Shown here: in pieces, positions 11,189-25,286 of the stretch
Layout of the letters: the number at the start of each line of letters is the position of its first letter
How positions within the stretch are numbered: position 1 is the first letter of the stretch
Assembly: GCA_009773415.1 (NCBI GenBank)
Contig: WSNO01000009.1
Span: 1-64,000 of the forward strand
Source of the DNA: Nitrospirota bacterium
GTDB taxonomy: Bacteria > Nitrospirota > Thermodesulfovibrionia > Thermodesulfovibrionales > Dissulfurispiraceae
Length of the DNA stretch: 64,000 bases
Direction of reading: 5' to 3'
The notes under the pieces: generated by a model
The model's input: the letters and a program-made list of their open reading frames with translations, nothing else
What the model was told of the DNA's origin: nothing
Database searches by the model: none
Translations under genes and position numbers: made by a program

Positions 11189-11265
11189 GCCCCCGTAGCT
11201 CAGACGGATAGAGCACAGGTTTCCTAAACCTGGTGTCGCACGTTCGAATCGTGTCGGGGGCGCCA
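11189..11265 (+). tRNA. tRNA-Arg(CCT), integration site of the downstream island
   Basis: Cloverleaf with acceptor GCCCCCG/CGGGGGC, D arm GCTC/GAGC, anticodon stem CAGGT/ACCTG, loop TTCCTAA (anticodon CCT, reads AGG), T arm with GTTCGAATC, and encoded CCA. From the second T of the loop region onward its sequence is duplicated at 23091, so the gene was kept intact when the island inserted. Confidence 0.96.
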
Positions 11266-11286
11266 TTTTCTATACGTACCATTAAA
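11220..11286 (+). repeat. attL: 67-bp direct repeat, left copy
   Basis: The 67 bases from the anticodon loop (TTTCCTAAACC...) through the tRNA 3' end and 21 bases beyond (...TACGTACCATTAAA) are repeated without a mismatch at 23091-23157. The identity starts in the anticodon loop, a standard crossover sub-site for tyrosine recombinases in tRNA genes. Confidence 0.95.
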
Positions 11287-11554
11287 CCCAAAATTGTCAT
11301 TGGCAATAGTCCAAATCGCTCATCGCAGCCGGCGAATGTTCCGCTGTGGAGATAGTAAAAGAAGAAATTGATTCTGCGGGAACACAAAGAAGAACTCAAA
11401 AAGAAATCATTACATCCCGGATGTCTGCCGCGATCTTGGCATCCCCTGCATTAATCTGCTCGGCCTCATGCGTCGCGAACGTTGGACTTATTAAGGACGA
11501 ATCAACGTAAAACCAATAGATGCTTGATGTCTCCCTGCTTCTGAATCATACATC
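11287..11554. other. Island left end, no recognisable gene
   Basis: Between attL and the DUF499 stop there is no gene I can support. A plus-strand frame (about 11342-11510) and another short one (HYIPDVCRDLGIP...) are open but have neither a start signal nor recognisable motifs. They may be remains of an integrase or transposase, but this cannot be shown. Confidence 0.4.
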
Positions 11555-14917
<3,363 letters not shown>

Positions 14918-14929
14918 GGCCGTCTCCTG

Positions 14930-17797
14930 TTAAAACAGCTTTTCGTCTTGTTTCGCAGGTGTAACGCTGCGGTCCTGCGCCAGTCGCATGATCTCGGGCC
15001 AGCTTTGCACCAGCGCATTATAGGACAGAGCTTCCTGTGCGCGCTTCTTTTTTTCGCACAATGAAAAGAGCCGGTAGGCCAGTTCCCGGGCTACTTCGGC
15101 ATGGGAGCCGAGCTTTGCCACAAGTTTTGCCGCCGCATCTTCGCCGCCCGTTTCCAGCGCCCGTATAAGCTGATGAACGACTTCCCACGCAGTAAGACGC
15201 GGGTCTTTCTCCGGGTTCCAGTCTGCCGGCAGTTCGTCAGGCTTCAGAAGCCGCACTTTGCCCCTGCCGGCTGCGAGAATGCCCGCCTCGACCATGCCTG
15301 GCACGCTCGTGTTTTTTGCCTTGGAGAGTGTTTCAGCCACACCATACTCACCTTCTTCAAACCCCGATTGCTCAAACCACGCTAAAGCCCACCGGCTGTC
15401 GGCGTCGAAATCGCCTTCCTGCTCGGCCAGCGCCTCGTCGAGAGTCTGGTTGATCAGAGCTAGAGCGTCGCGCACTGAAAGAGGCTTGCCGTCAGCGTCA
15501 AGCACTTTGGAATAGCGGGTATATACCGCCATTCCCGGACCAATAGCGGCCTGCGCAAGGTCTACTGGCGCGATGTTGCCTGCCTGCAAATGGCGCAAAG
15601 CATCAGGAAGCTCGGCTTTGAGCGCAGCGACAAACTCGCGGCGTGTGGCAGTGGGGGCAATGCTAGGTCGTTGGCGGCAGACGATAATGATGCTGGAGGC
15701 GAGGGCGTTGGTACCCATAGCAATCATGCGACCGGAACCCTCGGTTCGTACTGGCCAAGTACCGCTGATAGCAAAACCCGCTTCAATTACGGCAGCCAGA
15801 AAAGTGTCCCAGCCGGTATTTGTCGTGCCGTCATCATCGTCGCTCTCGGACTGCTTGAAGGCATAATAGATTGTAATCGGAAACGCTGGGTGTGCCTGCT
15901 CTGCGAGGCGGTGCATTGCCTTCGTCATCCCGTTGAGGAAGAAAGCCTCTGCTTTCTCTTTACTACCATGTCGATAGGGCGTAGCCACCAGTTCCTCGGC
16001 CTTTGGCACGGCGAGCGTGGCGAAGAGATCGGGAAAGACGGACTTTAGTGATCGCCTTAGCCAGACGTAGAAAAAGTCAGACAGATCAGCATAACCGATG
16101 TTGTCATAATAGGGCGGGTCGGTGGAAACGACCTTGTCGTGGCTAATGGTCTGCGATGCAGCATCTTGTTGTTCGGCCTTCGCAGGCGCACTTGCGGGGA
16201 AAGCATCTATTGCCATGGTGCCTTTCTCTACCGCTATAGAAAAGCTACCGCCTATGTCCGCAAAAGTGTTCGCTTCAGCGAAATCCCACGTCATTGGAAT
16301 AGCTTGTCGGGCAAATGTTTCACGGAAAGCGCCGCGATCGCTCATCCAAGATGCTATCGACGATCCTATGTTTGTCATTTTTGAGACTGCAAACGCCAAA
16401 TACACTCCCACTGCCTCAGCATACGCCGTAGCGCCAGAGCCGCCTTTGTCCAGGGCTTTGCCGTCGTCAGGCAGGCCGGCTTTAATGGCATCTTGTTTCA
16501 CCCGCTCGCGCGCTTCCTGCACAAGATCGGAGAAGGTCGTCAACGCCACAAGCTGGCGAGGGGTGAAGAGGTCACGCCACTTGGTCATTCCATACTCCTG
16601 CACACGGAATCCAAGAGCTTTAGGGGGCAAGTCAGTCTCTGGCGGATACATCGGCTTTGCGCTCAACGCAACAGTTTCCATTTCAGATGTTGGAGATAAA
16701 TACACTCGCCCCCGATCACCTTCGGCGACGATAGCCATCAACCGCGCACCCATGCGTCCGGCTTTAGCTTCTGTCCGGAGATATTCAAACGGCATTGGTG
16801 TGCCCGACATCAAACATAGAAAACTGCTTCCACTGCTACCGGACTTCGTGCCTCTCTTTGCAGTCTCCGCATTCTTCGGCTTGCCCACCTTCACCGTGAA
16901 GCGGTAGCTGCCGCCCTCAATCACCGGCTCAACATAGGCTTCCTTGCCAGCCTTGGTGGAGAGCATAAAGGTCGAGGCGAGCGGAACGTCAACGTTTGCA
17001 AAGGCCGGGTTGGGGCTTTTCACAGTCCTTGCCCATAGCCAGGCGATGACGGTGAGCTTCTGTCCTTTGTATTGCTTCAGATCCGCTCGCTCCTTCACCA
17101 TATCGGCCGTAATTTCAATTTTGGGGTAAAGGTGACCTATGCGCTTTTCGGCCTCATCGCGCATCCATTTTCCGTAATAGCGCACATCTTCGGCAAGTCC
17201 GGCGGCGCCTTTGTAGCTGACGTCTTCGTATCCTTTTCCTGCCTTCCGGCTCACTGGCGGTTTGCCGGAAAATTTGGGCGGGATTTCGATCATCGCTTTA
17301 GTAATGAGCACCGCCACCGGGTTTAAGTCGCTGGCATAGCTCTCAAGCCCCAGCCGCTGCGCTTCGAGCGGCAGCGCGCCGCCGCCGGCAAAGGGGTCGT
17401 GGAAAGCGGGCAGCTTGTACCGGTCAAACAGTTCCTTTGCTCGCGGATGGTCAGCATTTTCAGCACAGGCATAGCGCCAGCTCTGCCAAATTTCGTCGCG
17501 CGCCTGCTGCAGGACTGACTCGTTGGTGGTGTTCTCCCACTTTACAAGGTCTTCAATAATGCGAAAGAGCCGCTGTCGTTCTTTCTCCTGTTGCTTCTCG
17601 GTCGGAAACAGGTCTGGATGCGACGACGGGTCATCTACCATCTGGGCAAAAATCACCGCCCGCGCCGCCGCCAATGGCCGCCGCGCCCACCACAGATGCA
17701 ACGTGGACGGATGCCCGTGGCGGATGGACTTCTCGCGTGCGCTGGCTATGTTGATGGCCTCCAGCGGCAGGGCTACTTCAATGAGTTTTTTGGTCAT
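14930..17797 (-). CDS. DUF1156 (COG1743) adenine/cytosine-N DNA methyltransferase
   Basis: A 955-residue SAM-dependent DNA methyltransferase. It opens with [20 protein letters not shown] and [14 protein letters not shown], the DUF1156 signature. The SAM motif is [19 protein letters not shown] (about 133-151) followed by ASDLNPVAV; the catalytic motif is STDPPYYDN (DPPY at 560-563), indicating amino-methylation (N6A or N4C). Relatives carry a Zn-ribbon with Cys-rich knuckles after WLWARTVK; here the corresponding residues read [10 protein letters not shown] and CLMSGTP, so most Cys ligands are gone. The gene lies 21 bases after the SecB-like gene and 12 before DUF499, so these form one operon. 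The target sequence is unknown and no separate specificity subunit is visible. Confidence 0.9.
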
Positions 17798-17818: not shown

Positions 17819-18265
17819 CTATGACTTGGCTTTCTTCAGTTTTTTTGTGGCTATCTGTTTTTCAGCATTTTTCTGTCGTTCCTCATATAGTGCAATAAAG
17901 TTAACAGGTGCCAGATGCAGGGGCGGAATATTTGCGCGGCGTGTCAGGTCAGCCACCGACTCACGAATGTACGGGAAAATGATTGATGCGCAGTTAATAT
18001 GCGCAACACGCTCAAGAGTATCTTTTGCAGGCGCTTTCTCAAAGACAAAAGAACCTTGCCAGGCAACGGCAAAACGAAATGGCTGTTTTTCATTGTCTGA
18101 TGAAAGCGAAACAAGAACATGGAGTGAATTCTTTTTCTGTTCGTAAGTCACTTCAATGTTTTGCGTAATCTCCACCAGCTTATTCTTTTCGGGCTTGAAC
18201 TCAGGTGTCAGGGCAAAATGGGCCTCGACCTGCCTGATCGCAGCAATTTTGAATTTATGATCCAT
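17819..18265 (-). CDS. SecB-like chaperone of a toxin-antitoxin-chaperone (TAC) module
   Basis: A 148-residue SecB homologue. The core SIIFPYIRESVADLTRRA followed by IPPLHLAPVNFIALYEE aligns with the end of E. coli SecB (LFPYARE...LNLAPVNFDALF). In TAC systems a solitary SecB-like protein binds the C-terminal addiction region of the antitoxin and protects it from aggregation and proteolysis. Here it overlaps the MqsA-like antitoxin by 11 bases, which supports that role over general export. A Lys-rich tail replaces the usual acidic SecB C terminus. It is followed after 21 bases by the methyltransferase, so the chaperone sits between the toxin system and the defence enzymes. Confidence 0.88.
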   Translation of the reverse strand: MDHKFKIAAIRQVEAHFALTPEFKPEKNKLVEITQNIEVTYEQKKNSLHVLVSLSSDNEKQPFRFAVAWQGSFVFEKAPAKDTLERVAHINCASIIFPYIRESVADLTRRANIPPLHLAPVNFIALYEERQKNAEKQIATKKLKKAKS

Positions 18266-18803
18266 ATGCGGCCTCCTGCGTGTCTACAGTAAATGCGCTT
18301 GTCTTGCCCTTGAGCCTGTCCTCTTTGCCCATCTTGTATTTATATTCCTCAAAATACGCTATATTCCCCGTCGTCTTCGAACTGCTTTCCTTCTTTTGAA
18401 TAACATTCAGAGTATGTGGATACGCATCAAGAATCCTGAGCAGATTGTCCATGCCGCGACTCTGGCAGACCTGCCCGGACTCATATCTTGCCAAACTCTT
18501 TGCTCCGCCGCCGACGATTTCCGCCAGCTCATTCTGAGTCAGGCCAAGTTTGGCACGGATGGCCTTGATCTGTTCTGCTGTCAATAGTCCGTCTACTTCC
18601 CGCTTAAATGCCTTCAAAATCTTGCCGGATTTCTTCATGGTGTTGTTATCAACAATAGCTTCGCCGCAAGCATCGCATGCATAGGTGACATAATTCGGTA
18701 TGCTTATAGACTTGCCTTTATATTCAAATGTCTCAGCACCAATCTCTTTTCTAAGGGAACCAGTACCACAAATAGGGCATTTCTGATCTTTCATGTTATT
18801 CAT
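18255..18803 (-). CDS. mqsA: MqsA-family antitoxin with C-terminal chaperone-addiction-like extension
   Basis: A 182-residue antitoxin and autorepressor. The N-terminal zinc domain has CPICG (Cys9, Cys12) and CDACGE (Cys43, Cys46) and in E. coli MqsA binds the toxin. The C-terminal HTH domain reads AIRAKLGLTQNELAEIVGGG then AKSLARYESG (about 81-110). E. coli MqsA ends near residue 131; this protein has about 45 extra residues (138-182), rich in Tyr/Lys/Glu (YFEEYKYKMGKEDR). In TAC systems such an extension (ChAD) makes the antitoxin depend on its SecB-like chaperone. It overlaps the toxin gene by 8 bases and the chaperone gene by 11. Toxin-first order is the normal mqsRA arrangement. Confidence 0.9.
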   Translation of the reverse strand: MNNMKDQKCPICGTGSLRKEIGAETFEYKGKSISIPNYVTYACDACGEAIVDNNTMKKSGKILKAFKREVDGLLTAEQIKAIRAKLGLTQNELAEIVGGGAKSLARYESGQVCQSRGMDNLLRILDAYPHTLNVIQKKESSSKTTGNIAYFEEYKYKMGKEDRLKGKTSAFTVDTQEAAYGS

Positions 18804-19122
18804 TGCCTCCGGTATCTTCTTTCAACTGAATAAGAACTGCCTGCTTTTTGTCTGCGGATAACTGAAGCTTTATATAAAGGTTATTATCTTCATCTTTATA
18901 TTTGTAAACGTCCTGCCATACCGTACTGTCTGCATATGTGGTCATTGACTTAACAAAATGGTCGGAACACAGCTTGTCAGTAATTTCCAGGATGTCGAAC
19001 TCATTCATATATCCCATAGGAACAGCGCCTCGTCGAGCCGTCTTCGTAATAATACGGGTCTTCTCGTCACTGAAAAGCTTTTTGAATTTGGTCAGCGCAT
19101 AGTGCGGTTTTCGTTTTTCCAT
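18796..19122 (-). CDS. mqsR: MqsR-family mRNA interferase toxin
   Basis: A 108-residue RelE-fold endoribonuclease of the MqsR family, which cleaves mRNA at GC(U/A)-type sites in E. coli. It begins EKRKPHYALTKFKKL, close to EKRTPHTRLSQVKKL of E. coli MqsR, which fixes the start at the ATG at 19122 (an upstream GTG/ATG extension to 19176 would run through the promoter). KSMTTYADSTVWQDVY is nearly identical to the E. coli motif. The four residues important for E. coli activity (Lys56, Gln68, Tyr81, Lys96) correspond to Lys58, Gln70, Tyr83 and Lys101, so the toxin should be active. First gene of the TAC operon. Confidence 0.9.
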   Translation of the reverse strand: MEKRKPHYALTKFKKLFSDEKTRIITKTARRGAVPMGYMNEFDILEITDKLCSDHFVKSMTTYADSTVWQDVYKYKDEDNNLYIKLQLSADKKQAVLIQLKEDTGGNE

Positions 19123-19141
19123 CCACCAGTTACCTTGTCTT

Positions 19142-19176
19142 AGTATCATTATGATACTTTTTGTTCGGAATGTCAA
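19142..19176 (-). promoter_or_regulatory. mqsRA promoter with palindromic operator over the -10 box
   Basis: On the minus strand TTGACA (19176-19171) and CATAAT (19153-19148) are separated by exactly 17 bases, a near-consensus sigma-70 promoter, 26 bases from the mqsR start. The -10 box sits inside AGTATCATNATGATACT (19142-19158), a perfect inverted repeat with 8-base arms. This is the expected form of an MqsA-type autorepressor site, although its sequence differs from the E. coli AACCT-N-AGGTT operator. No terminator is visible before the methyltransferase and DUF499 genes. Confidence 0.75.
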
Positions 19177-19182
19177 TCCAAA

Positions 19183-22100
19183 TCATGAGGGGTGACCTGC
19201 GCGCGCAAGCAACTCGCCGAAGCTGTAGTTTACACTTGTCACGCCGAAATCAGGCTCGCGCTGGAAAGGCTGGCGCAGGTAGTGAACCTTATGGGTATCA
19301 CCCATAAATTCAACAACGGCCAGAATGAAGTCATCGGGTTTGTTCAGGGAATACAGAATCTCATTCCGCGTTACGGTGATAACATCTGCTCCGGCAATGC
19401 GGCCTTTTGCCTCGATAAACCGCAATTTGCCGGTTCCGGGAACCCGGCTTTCGATATCATAGCCGAGTTTTTCGGTCTCGCGGTCAACAGGCTCAAACCC
19501 CAGAGAACGCTCGATGTCCATGATAATCTCACGCGCACGTGCGCCGGCTGCCTGCGTGTCTGTTGCAGATTGAACTGACGACGTAGCATTTTTTGCAGAC
19601 ATGACATTGAGCATTCCGGCAGGAACGATGAGCGTTCCACCGAGCACTACCGGCGGCAGTGCGGAGAGCTGCGCTTCGAGCTTAAGTTCATCCATCCGTT
19701 TATGCAGCCGGGCCTGGAGCAAGTCTGCGCGTTTGCGTGCTTCGTTTGAATTGAGGCGGGCATTGGGTTTGCCCGCCTGTTCTTGCAGTCTGAGTTCTTC
19801 AGCGCGGTGATCCCAGTAGCTGATTTCTTTGGTCAGGCGTTCTTTTGCCGCAGCTTCAGTTTTCGCTATGAGTTGAAGTTTTCCAGAACGCACCTCGGCA
19901 AGATGTTCAGGAACAACATGGGCTATCGCATACGACTGGGCTTTATGTTCCAGTTTCCGGTCGATCCATGCGCATTCAGCTCTTCCAAGAATGGCCGGGA
20001 CGTCCGGCTCGCCCTCGCGCAAAGGGCGGAAATCAAGGTAAGGCGCGTAGTGTACATGATGTATATTCCCTGCAGCATCCATCTCTATATAGAGCATGCG
20101 CTTTGACACAACGCGTCGATCACCGGCGCGGGTTATGCTTGCATCGCGAATCTCGTGCTCAAGATAAAAGAGCATGCGGGGCTCAATGCCCAGATCTCGT
20201 TCATCGACCAATACGGCACCCCGGCGCAGCAAATCGCGGTGGCGCTCAATGACAAGGTCTATTGTTGCGTCGAGCAACGGGTGACCAGGACAGACAAAGG
20301 CAGCCAGAGCCTGTCCCTGCGGATTAATCAACGCCTTTTCGAATACGATGCGCTCATAACGCGGCAAAACAGGCTCCCCGACACCAATCAACCGGTCGCG
20401 GTTTCTTACCGGTGCAGGAACATGGGTGACTTCAAATCTGCGTGCCTCACGTTGACGAACGCTGCCTCCGAGCAGTTTGAATGCCTCCAGAAAGAACGAT
20501 TCAATGTAGTGCGGTTGCAGGCGGCGCGCTTCGGCGCGTTCCATTTCCTCCCGAATGCGATAGACGCGCCCGGCGTCCATGGCGTCGTGCGCAAGGGCGC
20601 GCTCTTCGATTAAATCACGCAATTCTCCCTGATCAAACGCGCTGGCTACAACCTGTGTCAGCCGCAATCTCACTTCCGGCTGTTCACCATAGCGCACAGC
20701 TTCAACGAGCAGTTCGCGGAGTGGACGGCCATCGAAAATCATCTTTCCGAGTATGTCAAAGACCTGACCGCCGAGTGCTTTGCGTGCCTCTTCCAGTTTA
20801 TCAAGAAGCACATGGTAGACCTCTCCCTCCCGGGTTTCTTCAGCCACCAGATTCCAGAGATGGCATACTTCAGTCTGGCCGATACGGTGAATTCGCCCGA
20901 AGCGCTGTTCGATTCTATTAGGATTCCACGGGAGATCGTAATTGACCATAAGATGAGCTCGTTGCAGGTTGATGCCTTCGCCTGCTGCATCTGTCGCAAG
21001 CAATACTTTCACTTCGGGATCGTGCTTGAAGGCCTCCTGCGTTTTCATGCGGTCTTCACGTCCCATACCGCCATGGATGCAGACAACGGCTTCCTTTTTC
21101 CCCAATAGAGTACTGATTCTTTGTTCAAGATAGGAGAGCGTATCCCGATGCTCTGTGAAGATGACAAGCTTCTGGCTGGCAGATGGTTTCAGGCAGGCTG
21201 CTGTTTCTGAGCCATACGGTGCGGGATCTTCCGCTATCTGGTCCGCAATTGCTGAGGAGGTGAAGATCTCTGACAGAAGATTTGCGAGTTCCCGCCACTT
21301 TTTGTCCTCGCCGCTTCGACGCACAGCAAGCGCAAGCGCTTCAAGGGTTCTCAACGTGGCTATCTCGGCCTTAAGTTCTTCTATGGTTTTCGCAGCAGTG
21401 GCCTGATCGAGGATCTGCTCCTCAATCTCCTGAACCTCATTATCAGGGGCATCATCCAAATCCTCGACATCGTCTGCATCAAGCACCGGGCCGTACTGTG
21501 CAATGGCAGCAGGAGCCAAAGCACCGCGCTGTAAGAGTTCAAGCTCTCTCAGCCGGTTTTCAAGGCGTTCTTTCCGGCGCCGTAATGACTGATAGATAGC
21601 CTCGGGCGAGGACGCCAGACGGCGCTGAAGTATGGTAAGGGCAAAGCCGACAGTCCCGGCGCGTTTGTCGTTCTGAAGGGCTTCAGCCCGGTTGAACTCC
21701 TCACGGACATAGTCAGTAACTGCCTTGTAAAGCTGTGCTTCAGCATCGGAAAGTTTATATGAAACGGTATACGCCAGACGTTCCGGGAAGAGATGGGTTG
21801 CATCAAACGTGAGGAGATTTTCCTTTACCATACGGCGCATGAGGTCTGAAACATCAGCAACATGAACACCATCGCGGAATTTTCCCTCGAAGCGGTCGCC
21901 GTCGAGCAGTGACATAAAGAGCTGGAAGTCTTCTTCCTTGCCGTTGTGTGGCGTCGCAGTCAAAAGAAGGAAGTGACGCGTAATCGTTGAAAGCATCTGC
22001 CCGAGCTTATAGCGTTTTGTATACTTGACCTCTCCACCAAAATAGGTAGCTGACATTTTGTGGGCTTCGTCACAGACAACAAGATCCCATCGGGCATCCG

Positions 22101-22764
22101 GGGCAGTCAGTTTTGCCTGAACATCTTCATTCCTGCTCAGCTTGTCGAGGCGGGCAATAACGAGGTTGTTTTCGAGAAACCAGTTGCCGGTTCGTGCTGC
22201 TTCGAGCTTGTCATTGGTCAGGATATCAAAAGGCAGTTGAAACCTGCGATACAGTTCGTCCTGCCACTGTTCGGCAAGGCTTCCGGGGCACACAATAAGG
22301 CAACGATGCAGATCGCCGCGCACGATTAGTTCCTTGATGAGTAGTCCGGCCATAATAGTCTTTCCAGCGCCGGGGTCATCGGCAAGGAGGAAGCGCAAAG
22401 GCTGGCGCGGTAACATTGACTCATATACTGCGGTAATCTGGTGCGGTAAGGGTTCAACCATGGAGGTATGCACTGCCAGCACTGGATCAAACAGATGGGC
22501 CAGGTGTATGCGGTGAGCTTCGGACACGAGGCGGAAAAGATAGCCGTTTCCGTCAAAGCTCCAGGGGCGACCTTCTGCTACAACCTCAATTCTTGTCTCA
22601 TCGTGACGATACAGCAATTCATTGGCAATCCTGCCGGACTGGTCTTTATAGGTGAGCTCAAGCGCTTCGGAGCCAAACCACTGCACATTGACTACAGTGA
22701 TAAGGCTGTTCGGCAAAATGCCCCGAACCGTTGCATTTGGCTTCAGATCTTCAAGTTTGCTCAT
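19183..22764 (-). CDS. SNF2-type helicase with C-terminal DUF3883 domain
   Basis: A 1193-residue superfamily 2 helicase/translocase. Motifs: LLADDPGAGKTIMAGL (Lys135), VVCDEAHKMS (DEAH at 232-235), LLLTATPHNGKEEDF (about 267-280), and in the second RecA lobe LATDAAGEGINLQRAH and RIEQRFGRIHRIGQ. The long middle and C-terminal region contains coiled-coil-like segments. The last 109 residues form a DUF3883 domain; GYDIESR (Asp1103) and FIEAKGR (Glu1118, Lys1120) resemble a PD-(D/E)xK nuclease core. Helicases of this build accompany DUF1156/DUF499 genes, and the SNF2 helicase of class 1 DISARM is similar in kind. It ends seven bases before the -35 box of the mqsR promoter and is first in the gene series, so it can be expressed separately. 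Confidence 0.9.
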   Translation of the reverse strand: MSKLEDLKPNATVRGILPNSLITVVNVQWFGSEALELTYKDQSGRIANELLYRHDETRIEVVAEGRPWSFDGNGYLFRLVSEAHRIHLAHLFDPVLAVHTSMVEPLPHQITAVYESMLPRQPLRFLLADDPGAGKTIMAGLLIKELIVRGDLHRCLIVCPGSLAEQWQDELYRRFQLPFDILTNDKLEAARTGNWFLENNLVIARLDKLSRNEDVQAKLTAPDARWDLVVCDEAHKMSATYFGGEVKYTKRYKLGQMLSTITRHFLLLTATPHNGKEEDFQLFMSLLDGDRFEGKFRDGVHVADVSDLMRRMVKENLLTFDATHLFPERLAYTVSYKLSDAEAQLYKAVTDYVREEFNRAEALQNDKRAGTVGFALTILQRRLASSPEAIYQSLRRRKERLENRLRELELLQRGALAPAAIAQYGPVLDADDVEDLDDAPDNEVQEIEEQILDQATAAKTIEELKAEIATLRTLEALALAVRRSGEDKKWRELANLLSEIFTSSAIADQIAEDPAPYGSETAACLKPSASQKLVIFTEHRDTLSYLEQRISTLLGKKEAVVCIHGGMGREDRMKTQEAFKHDPEVKVLLATDAAGEGINLQRAHLMVNYDLPWNPNRIEQRFGRIHRIGQTEVCHLWNLVAEETREGEVYHVLLDKLEEARKALGGQVFDILGKMIFDGRPLRELLVEAVRYGEQPEVRLRLTQVVASAFDQGELRDLIEERALAHDAMDAGRVYRIREEMERAEARRLQPHYIESFFLEAFKLLGGSVRQREARRFEVTHVPAPVRNRDRLIGVGEPVLPRYERIVFEKALINPQGQALAAFVCPGHPLLDATIDLVIERHRDLLRRGAVLVDERDLGIEPRMLFYLEHEIRDASITRAGDRRVVSKRMLYIEMDAAGNIHHVHYAPYLDFRPLREGEPDVPAILGRAECAWIDRKLEHKAQSYAIAHVVPEHLAEVRSGKLQLIAKTEAAAKERLTKEISYWDHRAEELRLQEQAGKPNARLNSNEARKRADLLQARLHKRMDELKLEAQLSALPPVVLGGTLIVPAGMLNVMSAKNATSSVQSATDTQAAGARAREIIMDIERSLGFEPVDRETEKLGYDIESRVPGTGKLRFIEAKGRIAGADVITVTRNEILYSLNKPDDFILAVVEFMGDTHKVHYLRQPFQREPDFGVTSVNYSFGELLARAGHPS

Positions 22765-22836
22765 ACTGGTTCCTTATCGCTTCTTATATGTGTAAAAGCT
22801 AAGCTCTTGTCGTACAGTTTCCGTGACTGAAAGAAA

Positions 22837-22965
22837 TGGCAGTCAGTCTAACTGATTGGGCAAGATGTTTCACCACAAAACAAGCCCGGGAGGAGAACAT
22901 GGCTACCGACAAGAAGATAGCACAGAACCGATTGACATTACTACAGCTTGCTGAGCGGCTTCGCT
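22837..22965 (+). mobile_element. IS481-family left-end remnant
   Basis: AGGAGAAC precedes ATG at 22899, and the reading MATDKKIAQNRLTLLQLAER is the standard N terminus of an IS481-family transposase. After about 21 residues the match ends abruptly. The upstream GTCAGTCTAACTGATTGGGC resembles the terminal repeat region of such elements. No matching right end was found before attR. It is a 5' fragment only. Confidence 0.65.
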
Positions 22966-23019
22966 CCGGGCGGCCCAGGCTTCAAAACCATGGGGGTTTC
23001 CGGCAGATTTTGATAAAGC

Positions 23020-23052
23020 AAAACGACTCTAAGCCAAGCTCAGAGCCGTTTT
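23020..23052. other. Hairpin just inside attR
   Basis: AAAACGACTCT and AGAGCCGTTTT form an 11-bp stem with one mismatch around an 11-base loop. It could act as a weak terminator in either direction, or it may be a leftover of a mobile-element end. No gene lies close enough to decide. Confidence 0.45.
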
Positions 23053-23090
23053 CTGCAAATTATCAGCGCCTTGCAAAACCCTGAAGCCGT

Positions 23091-23157
23091 TTTCCTAAAC
23101 CTGGTGTCGCACGTTCGAATCGTGTCGGGGGCGCCATTTTCTATACGTACCATTAAA
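23091..23157 (+). repeat. attR: 67-bp direct repeat, right copy
   Basis: Identical over 67 bases to 11220-11286. It is the displaced 3' part of tRNA-Arg(CCT), lacking the 5' half, so it is not a tRNA gene. The flanking base to the left differs (T against G), which fixes the crossover window within the repeat. Confidence 0.95.
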
Positions 23158-25236: not shown

Positions 25237-25286
25237 GTTCACAAAAAGAAGAGCGCGCCTCAGGGCGCGCTCTTCTTTTTGTGAAC
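25237..25286. terminator. Bidirectional terminator between rpsU and ppnP
   Basis: Perfect 23-bp inverted repeat (arms starting GTTCACAAAAAGAAG) with loop TCAG. A GC-rich core (GAGCGCGCC) is flanked by A and T tracts, so it can terminate both converging transcripts. Confidence 0.93.

Follow-up and report, generated by a model that had tools for sequence, protein, structure and literature searches.

How does a genomic island come to lie between two perfect copies of the 3' half of a tRNA gene, when no recombinase is encoded between them? The question is raised by a tRNA-Arg locus within the window, by which we mean the whole analysed stretch of 64,000 nucleotides. The original prediction had left two possibilities side by side: an island relying on a recombinase in trans, like satellite or mobilisable islands, or a decayed element whose payload was kept. 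In this work we conclude that the locus is probably an island of the CIME type which lost its integrase by deletion and kept its payload. It is a clear but essentially ordinary decayed genomic island. The features on which the argument is built are as follows, in positions of the window.

11189-11265, plus strand: intact tRNA-Arg(CCT) (ARAGORN), the integration target and the reconstituted tRNA of the left end
11220-11286, plus strand: attL core, a 67-bp repeat composed of 46 bases of the tRNA 3' part and 21 downstream bases
11287-11494, plus strand: DUF4411 (PF14367) toxin pseudogene (Pfam, E 2.3e-7; own-genome family search, E 1.3e-6 at 11387-11491; BLAST to genome G004; codon comparison)
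11555-14917, minus strand: HmaC, 1120 aa, with Swt1-type HEPN domain and DUF499 ATPase (PADLOC HmaC, 1154 bits; Pfam HEPN_Swt1 and DUF499)
14930-17797, minus strand: HmaB, 955 aa, DNA methyltransferase with DUF1156 (PADLOC HmaB, 1588 bits; Pfam)
17819-18265, minus strand: SecB-like chaperone of a toxin-antitoxin-chaperone module (Pfam SecB, E 4e-18; PADLOC PD-T4-9_C)
18255-18803, minus strand: MqsA antitoxin (Pfam MqsA, E 4e-28, residues 8-135 of 182)
18796-19176, minus strand: MqsR toxin (Pfam MqsR, E 5e-27)
19183-22764, minus strand: HmaA, 1193 aa, SNF2/DEAD helicase with NOV_C domain (PADLOC HmaA, 1702 bits; Pfam)
22765-23090: right inner flank, comprising the region upstream of hmaA and a short ORF (22836-23084, plus strand)
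23091-23157, plus strand: attR core, a truncated tRNA-Arg copy identical to 11220-11286

The perfect 67-bp duplication of the tRNA-Arg 3' half, claimed at the outset, was confirmed by ARAGORN, by repeat search and by genome search. The two copies form a direct repeat of 100% identity with a spacing of 11871 bp, and a DNA search across all 61 contigs of the genome (2.46 Mb) returned only these two copies of the core. By our own estimate (64000^2/2 x 4^-67) the chance expectation of a 67-base match in 64 kb is about 1e-31. The identity had been said to begin in the anticodon loop, which holds for the anticodon region but not for the exact base: it starts one base ahead of the loop, with the final base of the 5' anticodon stem (tRNA position 32). 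At its other end the repeat extends 21 bases beyond the tRNA 3' end. The att core was not found in viral contigs, and the base composition of the island is no different from that of its surroundings, which supports neither side.

Genomes of the same family and order were compared at the syntenic tRNA-Arg(CCT), recognised by its neighbours, tRNA-Pro(CGG) and an LDcluster4 gene. Integrase elements of about 4.7 kb occupy this site in two genomes of the same family. The one in G018 is bounded by a 51-bp repeat of 98% identity and carries a 354-aa integrase with its stop codon a few bases from the tRNA, while in G022 the repeat is 44 bp long and perfect, and the integrase, of 395 aa, reads into the tRNA. 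Both integrases are intact and of the tyrosine type, and both repeats start at tRNA position 32 or 33, like the repeat in the window. An integrase of 394 aa in G046 and one of 232 aa at a contig edge in G005, both genomes of the same order, likewise abut tRNA-Arg(CCT). This tRNA is therefore a tyrosine-integrase site in the group, where the integrase normally adjoins it directly, and the proposal of a classical tyrosine-recombinase site is well supported by the abutting intact integrases and the alike repeat starts. It had been suggested to look in related genomes for the same tRNA-Arg repeat with an integrase; G018 and G022 have repeats with an integrase at this tRNA, but the same island with an integrase was not found, and Hma lies at tRNA-Arg(CCT) in no other genome among the 176 of the order. 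The corresponding site of a sister species (G001) has its left flank stopping at a contig edge within the LDcluster4 gene and its right flank rearranged.

The claim that no integrase lies inside the island was upheld by family matching of its genes and by an integrase HMM run over the window ORFs. None of the genes between the repeats matched a recombinase family in PADLOC or Pfam, the iterated HMM found no integrase among the window ORFs of 45 aa or more in any of the six frames, and no relaxase or T4SS match was obtained for the island genes with PADLOC and Pfam. When both island ends were searched for integrase remnants, with host, G018 and G022 integrases as queries, the matches were at chance level only, the att core aside. 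One match, APPTRFERATPGLG, was rejected as an integrase remnant: it is what the tRNA repeat is known to yield when read antisense, and reflects the att core itself. As no integrase fragment is present inside the island, we infer a past integrase from position and from the scar described below.

The DUF4411 pseudogene lies exactly where the relatives carry their integrase. Its Pfam match corresponds to the C terminus of the protein. In comparison with the G004 gene two pieces are kept: one spans residues about 32 to 53 (11319-11384), and the other comprises the last 28 residues and still ends in the natural stop codon (11408-11494). About 200 bp are gone between them and the two are out of frame. 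By register the start codon is expected at about 11226, within the tRNA repeat, and therefore the gene lost its 5' end at the edge of the repeat. Of the C-terminal 28 codons 17 differ from G004, 14 of them synonymously and 3 nonsynonymously, which argues for selection on the gene until recent times; the N-terminal piece, with 7 synonymous and 6 other differences, is less clear. In G004 the DUF4411 gene is preceded by an XRE/ImmA-like gene (named from sequence alone), which is absent in the window, and loss of an antitoxin would favour inactivation of the toxin. Since the gene in the left inner flank is broken, an arm-type integrase site there is probably gone as well. A deletion between the repeat and the toxin gene would take whatever adjoined the tRNA, which in the relatives is the integrase. 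As a counterpoint, decay of the DUF4411 gene may predate the arrival of the island.

In contrast to its left edge, the payload of the island is intact. The 11.9 kb between the repeats hold six genes, all on the minus strand and transcribed in the order hmaA, mqsR, mqsA, secB, hmaB, hmaC, and all six are defence or toxin-antitoxin-chaperone genes only. Payne and co-workers (PMC8565338) put Hma forward as a candidate defence system; in a 2026 study these genes figure as a BREX-related DUF499 system, with reference to an experiment that confirmed a role of the helicase in phage defence (PMC12839542). The helicase, methylase and ATPase genes stand together in the window and all three are full length, as in the Hma system first described, from which the window differs in having the MqsR-MqsA-SecB genes between hmaA and hmaB. 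MqsR-MqsA-SecB constitutes a toxin-antitoxin-chaperone module (PMC5105189), and the E. coli MqsRAC module protects against phage T2 (PMC9519451). Judged by Pfam, the three genes of the window would form such a module within one operon: a predicted toxin, an antitoxin with a C-terminal extension (about 47 residues past the Pfam match) and a SecB-like chaperone. Their order agrees with the known modules, whereas their position, embedded in another defence operon, contrasts with a free-standing one.

The nesting of a toxin-antitoxin-chaperone module in Hma is the more unusual side observation of this work. Among 80 other Hma loci the full set lies between hmaA and hmaB only in L139 (8653-9983) and L140 (8662-9971), both from deltaproteobacterial genomes and both in the same order as in the window (17819-19176). 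The length of the hmaA-hmaB gap varies across many Hma loci, and a partial MqsA match falls within this gap in L102. For the short ORF between hmaA and the right repeat (beginning MATDKKIAQNRLTLLQLAERL...) we obtained no accepted Pfam or PHROGs match and no plasmid match; an IS481-type transposase remnant considered at 22900-22970 was dropped, as it has no Pfam, PHROGs or plasmid match. Outside the island, a perfect 23-bp inverted repeat with a 4-base loop at 25237-25286 is probably a strong terminator.

Hma occurs in 2 of the 176 genomes of the order, that of the window and G007, a member of the same family with two Hma operons. One of the latter (contig C60; L167, L176, L177) is enclosed by tRNA-Glu(CTC) repeats, 45 bp long, perfect and separated by about 37.9 kb, and its island encodes an intact 369-aa integrase situated 36 bp from the intact tRNA. 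It resembles the island of the window in its core repeat, which starts in the anticodon region and reaches at least the 3' end of the tRNA, and in its Hma cargo, and it differs in the intact integrase beside the tRNA, where the window island has none. Strong integrase matches were also present in 3 of the 80 Hma loci from other groups (L072, L105 and L118), of which L105 adjoins tRNA-Pro and L118 tRNA-Lys. Taken together with the tRNA-Glu island, these integrase-bearing loci indicate that Hma travels on tRNA-integrating islands.

Three further observations belong to this comparison. A 71-aa C-terminal integrase fragment beyond the far repeat of contig C60 suggests a decayed tandem neighbour of the tRNA-Glu island. 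The second Hma operon of G007 (C73) shares its contig with tRNA-Arg(CCT); its assignment to that site was rejected, since the tRNA has this operon on its 5' side. In a locus from Planctomycetota (L120, 20358-20694) about 260 bp separate the end of Hma from a tRNA-Arg(CCT), the orientation being that of the window; this locus was set aside as well, no repeat partner having been found.

The preferred reading can be put as a course of events. A mobile island with the Hma operon, MqsR-MqsA-SecB inside, would have entered the chromosome at the 3' half of tRNA-Arg(CCT) through a tyrosine integrase. The enzyme would have recombined the anticodon-loop region with a matching site of the element, so that the left end regained a complete tRNA and the right end was left with the truncated 67-bp copy. 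Later a tRNA-proximal deletion would have removed the integrase, probably also the antitoxin partner of DUF4411, and the start of the toxin gene. The outcome would be a toxin pseudogene placed against the repeat and defence genes fixed in the chromosome. Both this order of events and the presence of the integrase gene in the deleted DNA appear probable to us, and loss of the integrase together with the left arm would have locked the island in place.

Such an element comes close to the CIME, or cis-mobilizable element, a decayed ICE or IME in which attL and attR are kept while integration and transfer genes are lost (PMC5704250). The island of the window likewise retains attL and attR, as the 67-bp perfect repeat, and has its cargo intact with no integrase and no transfer genes; it also sits at a tRNA gene used by integrase-bearing elements. 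It departs from the model in lacking a conjugation-gene trace of ICE or IME parentage and a tandem neighbour. The DUF4411 deletion scar would fit decay, but there is no remnant of conjugation genes or of an integrase, and in the absence of conjugation genes an ICE or IME ancestry cannot be demonstrated.

The other answer offered originally, action in trans, requires a recombinase elsewhere. According to it, the island would be a non-autonomous satellite or mobilisable island which never had an integrase, its integration and possible excision being carried out in trans by the integrase of another tRNA-Arg(CCT) element. Integrase elements specific for this tRNA do exist in the family, and as both core repeats are perfect, the core sites would be usable by a visiting integrase. 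Apart from broken pieces, however, the only tyrosine recombinases of the host genome are XerC, XerD, an integron integrase and a Mop-domain regulator, part of which weakly resembles an integrase. An intact tRNA-type integrase, and with it a compatible one, was not found in the 61-contig assembly, from which a plasmid may have been missed, and the genome has no second element with the 67-bp core. Moreover, the left core is adjoined by a broken toxin gene and not by a conserved arm region. Nor does the same integrase-less element recur in several hosts: the only other Hma-bearing genome of the order has the operon at different sites, and tRNA-Arg(CCT) is free of Hma in all the rest. With no positive evidence for a satellite, and with a truncated DUF4411 gene at the repeat edge and no intact tRNA-type integrase in the host, decay is favoured and we regard action in trans as unlikely. 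A bolder form, in which the Hma and MqsRAC island is a true satellite moving via resident tRNA-Arg(CCT) integrases, with the toxin-antitoxin-chaperone set preventing its loss, seems to us more doubtful still.

Two observations on the recombinases of the host genome may be added. Broken tyrosine integrases L006, L007 and L009 (contigs C26, C51 and C18) adjoin tRNA-Lys(CTT), tRNA-Ala(GGC) and tRNA-Ala(CGC), respectively, and integrase loss from tRNA islands looks common in this genome. The integron integrase (L005, contig C15, 78078-78671; TIGR02249, 382 bits) indicates that the genome may contain a chromosomal integron.

An origin by accretion is improbable. The two repeats would then stem from different elements integrated in tandem, and an internal deletion would have taken one element, its integrase and the middle att copy. 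Repeated use of tRNA-Arg(CCT) within the family speaks for this, as do the tandem ICE, IME and CIME structures described (PMC5704250), but only two core copies exist, identical over 67 bp as expected from one event, and no second mobile-element gene set was found. A chromosomal duplication with no site-specific recombination, to which the absence of a recombinase and nothing further points, is hardly credible, given that the repeat starts at the anticodon region, like the integrase-flanked repeats of G018 and G022, and encloses a horizontally distributed defence operon.

Understood as a decayed, probably CIME-type island, the locus would represent a case of a defence operon becoming a chromosomal fixture: the integrase of its vehicle was lost, the payload remained whole and the scar is still legible. 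The relatives show the matching intact stages, some with an integrase at this tRNA, another with Hma carried on a tRNA-Glu island that still has its integrase.
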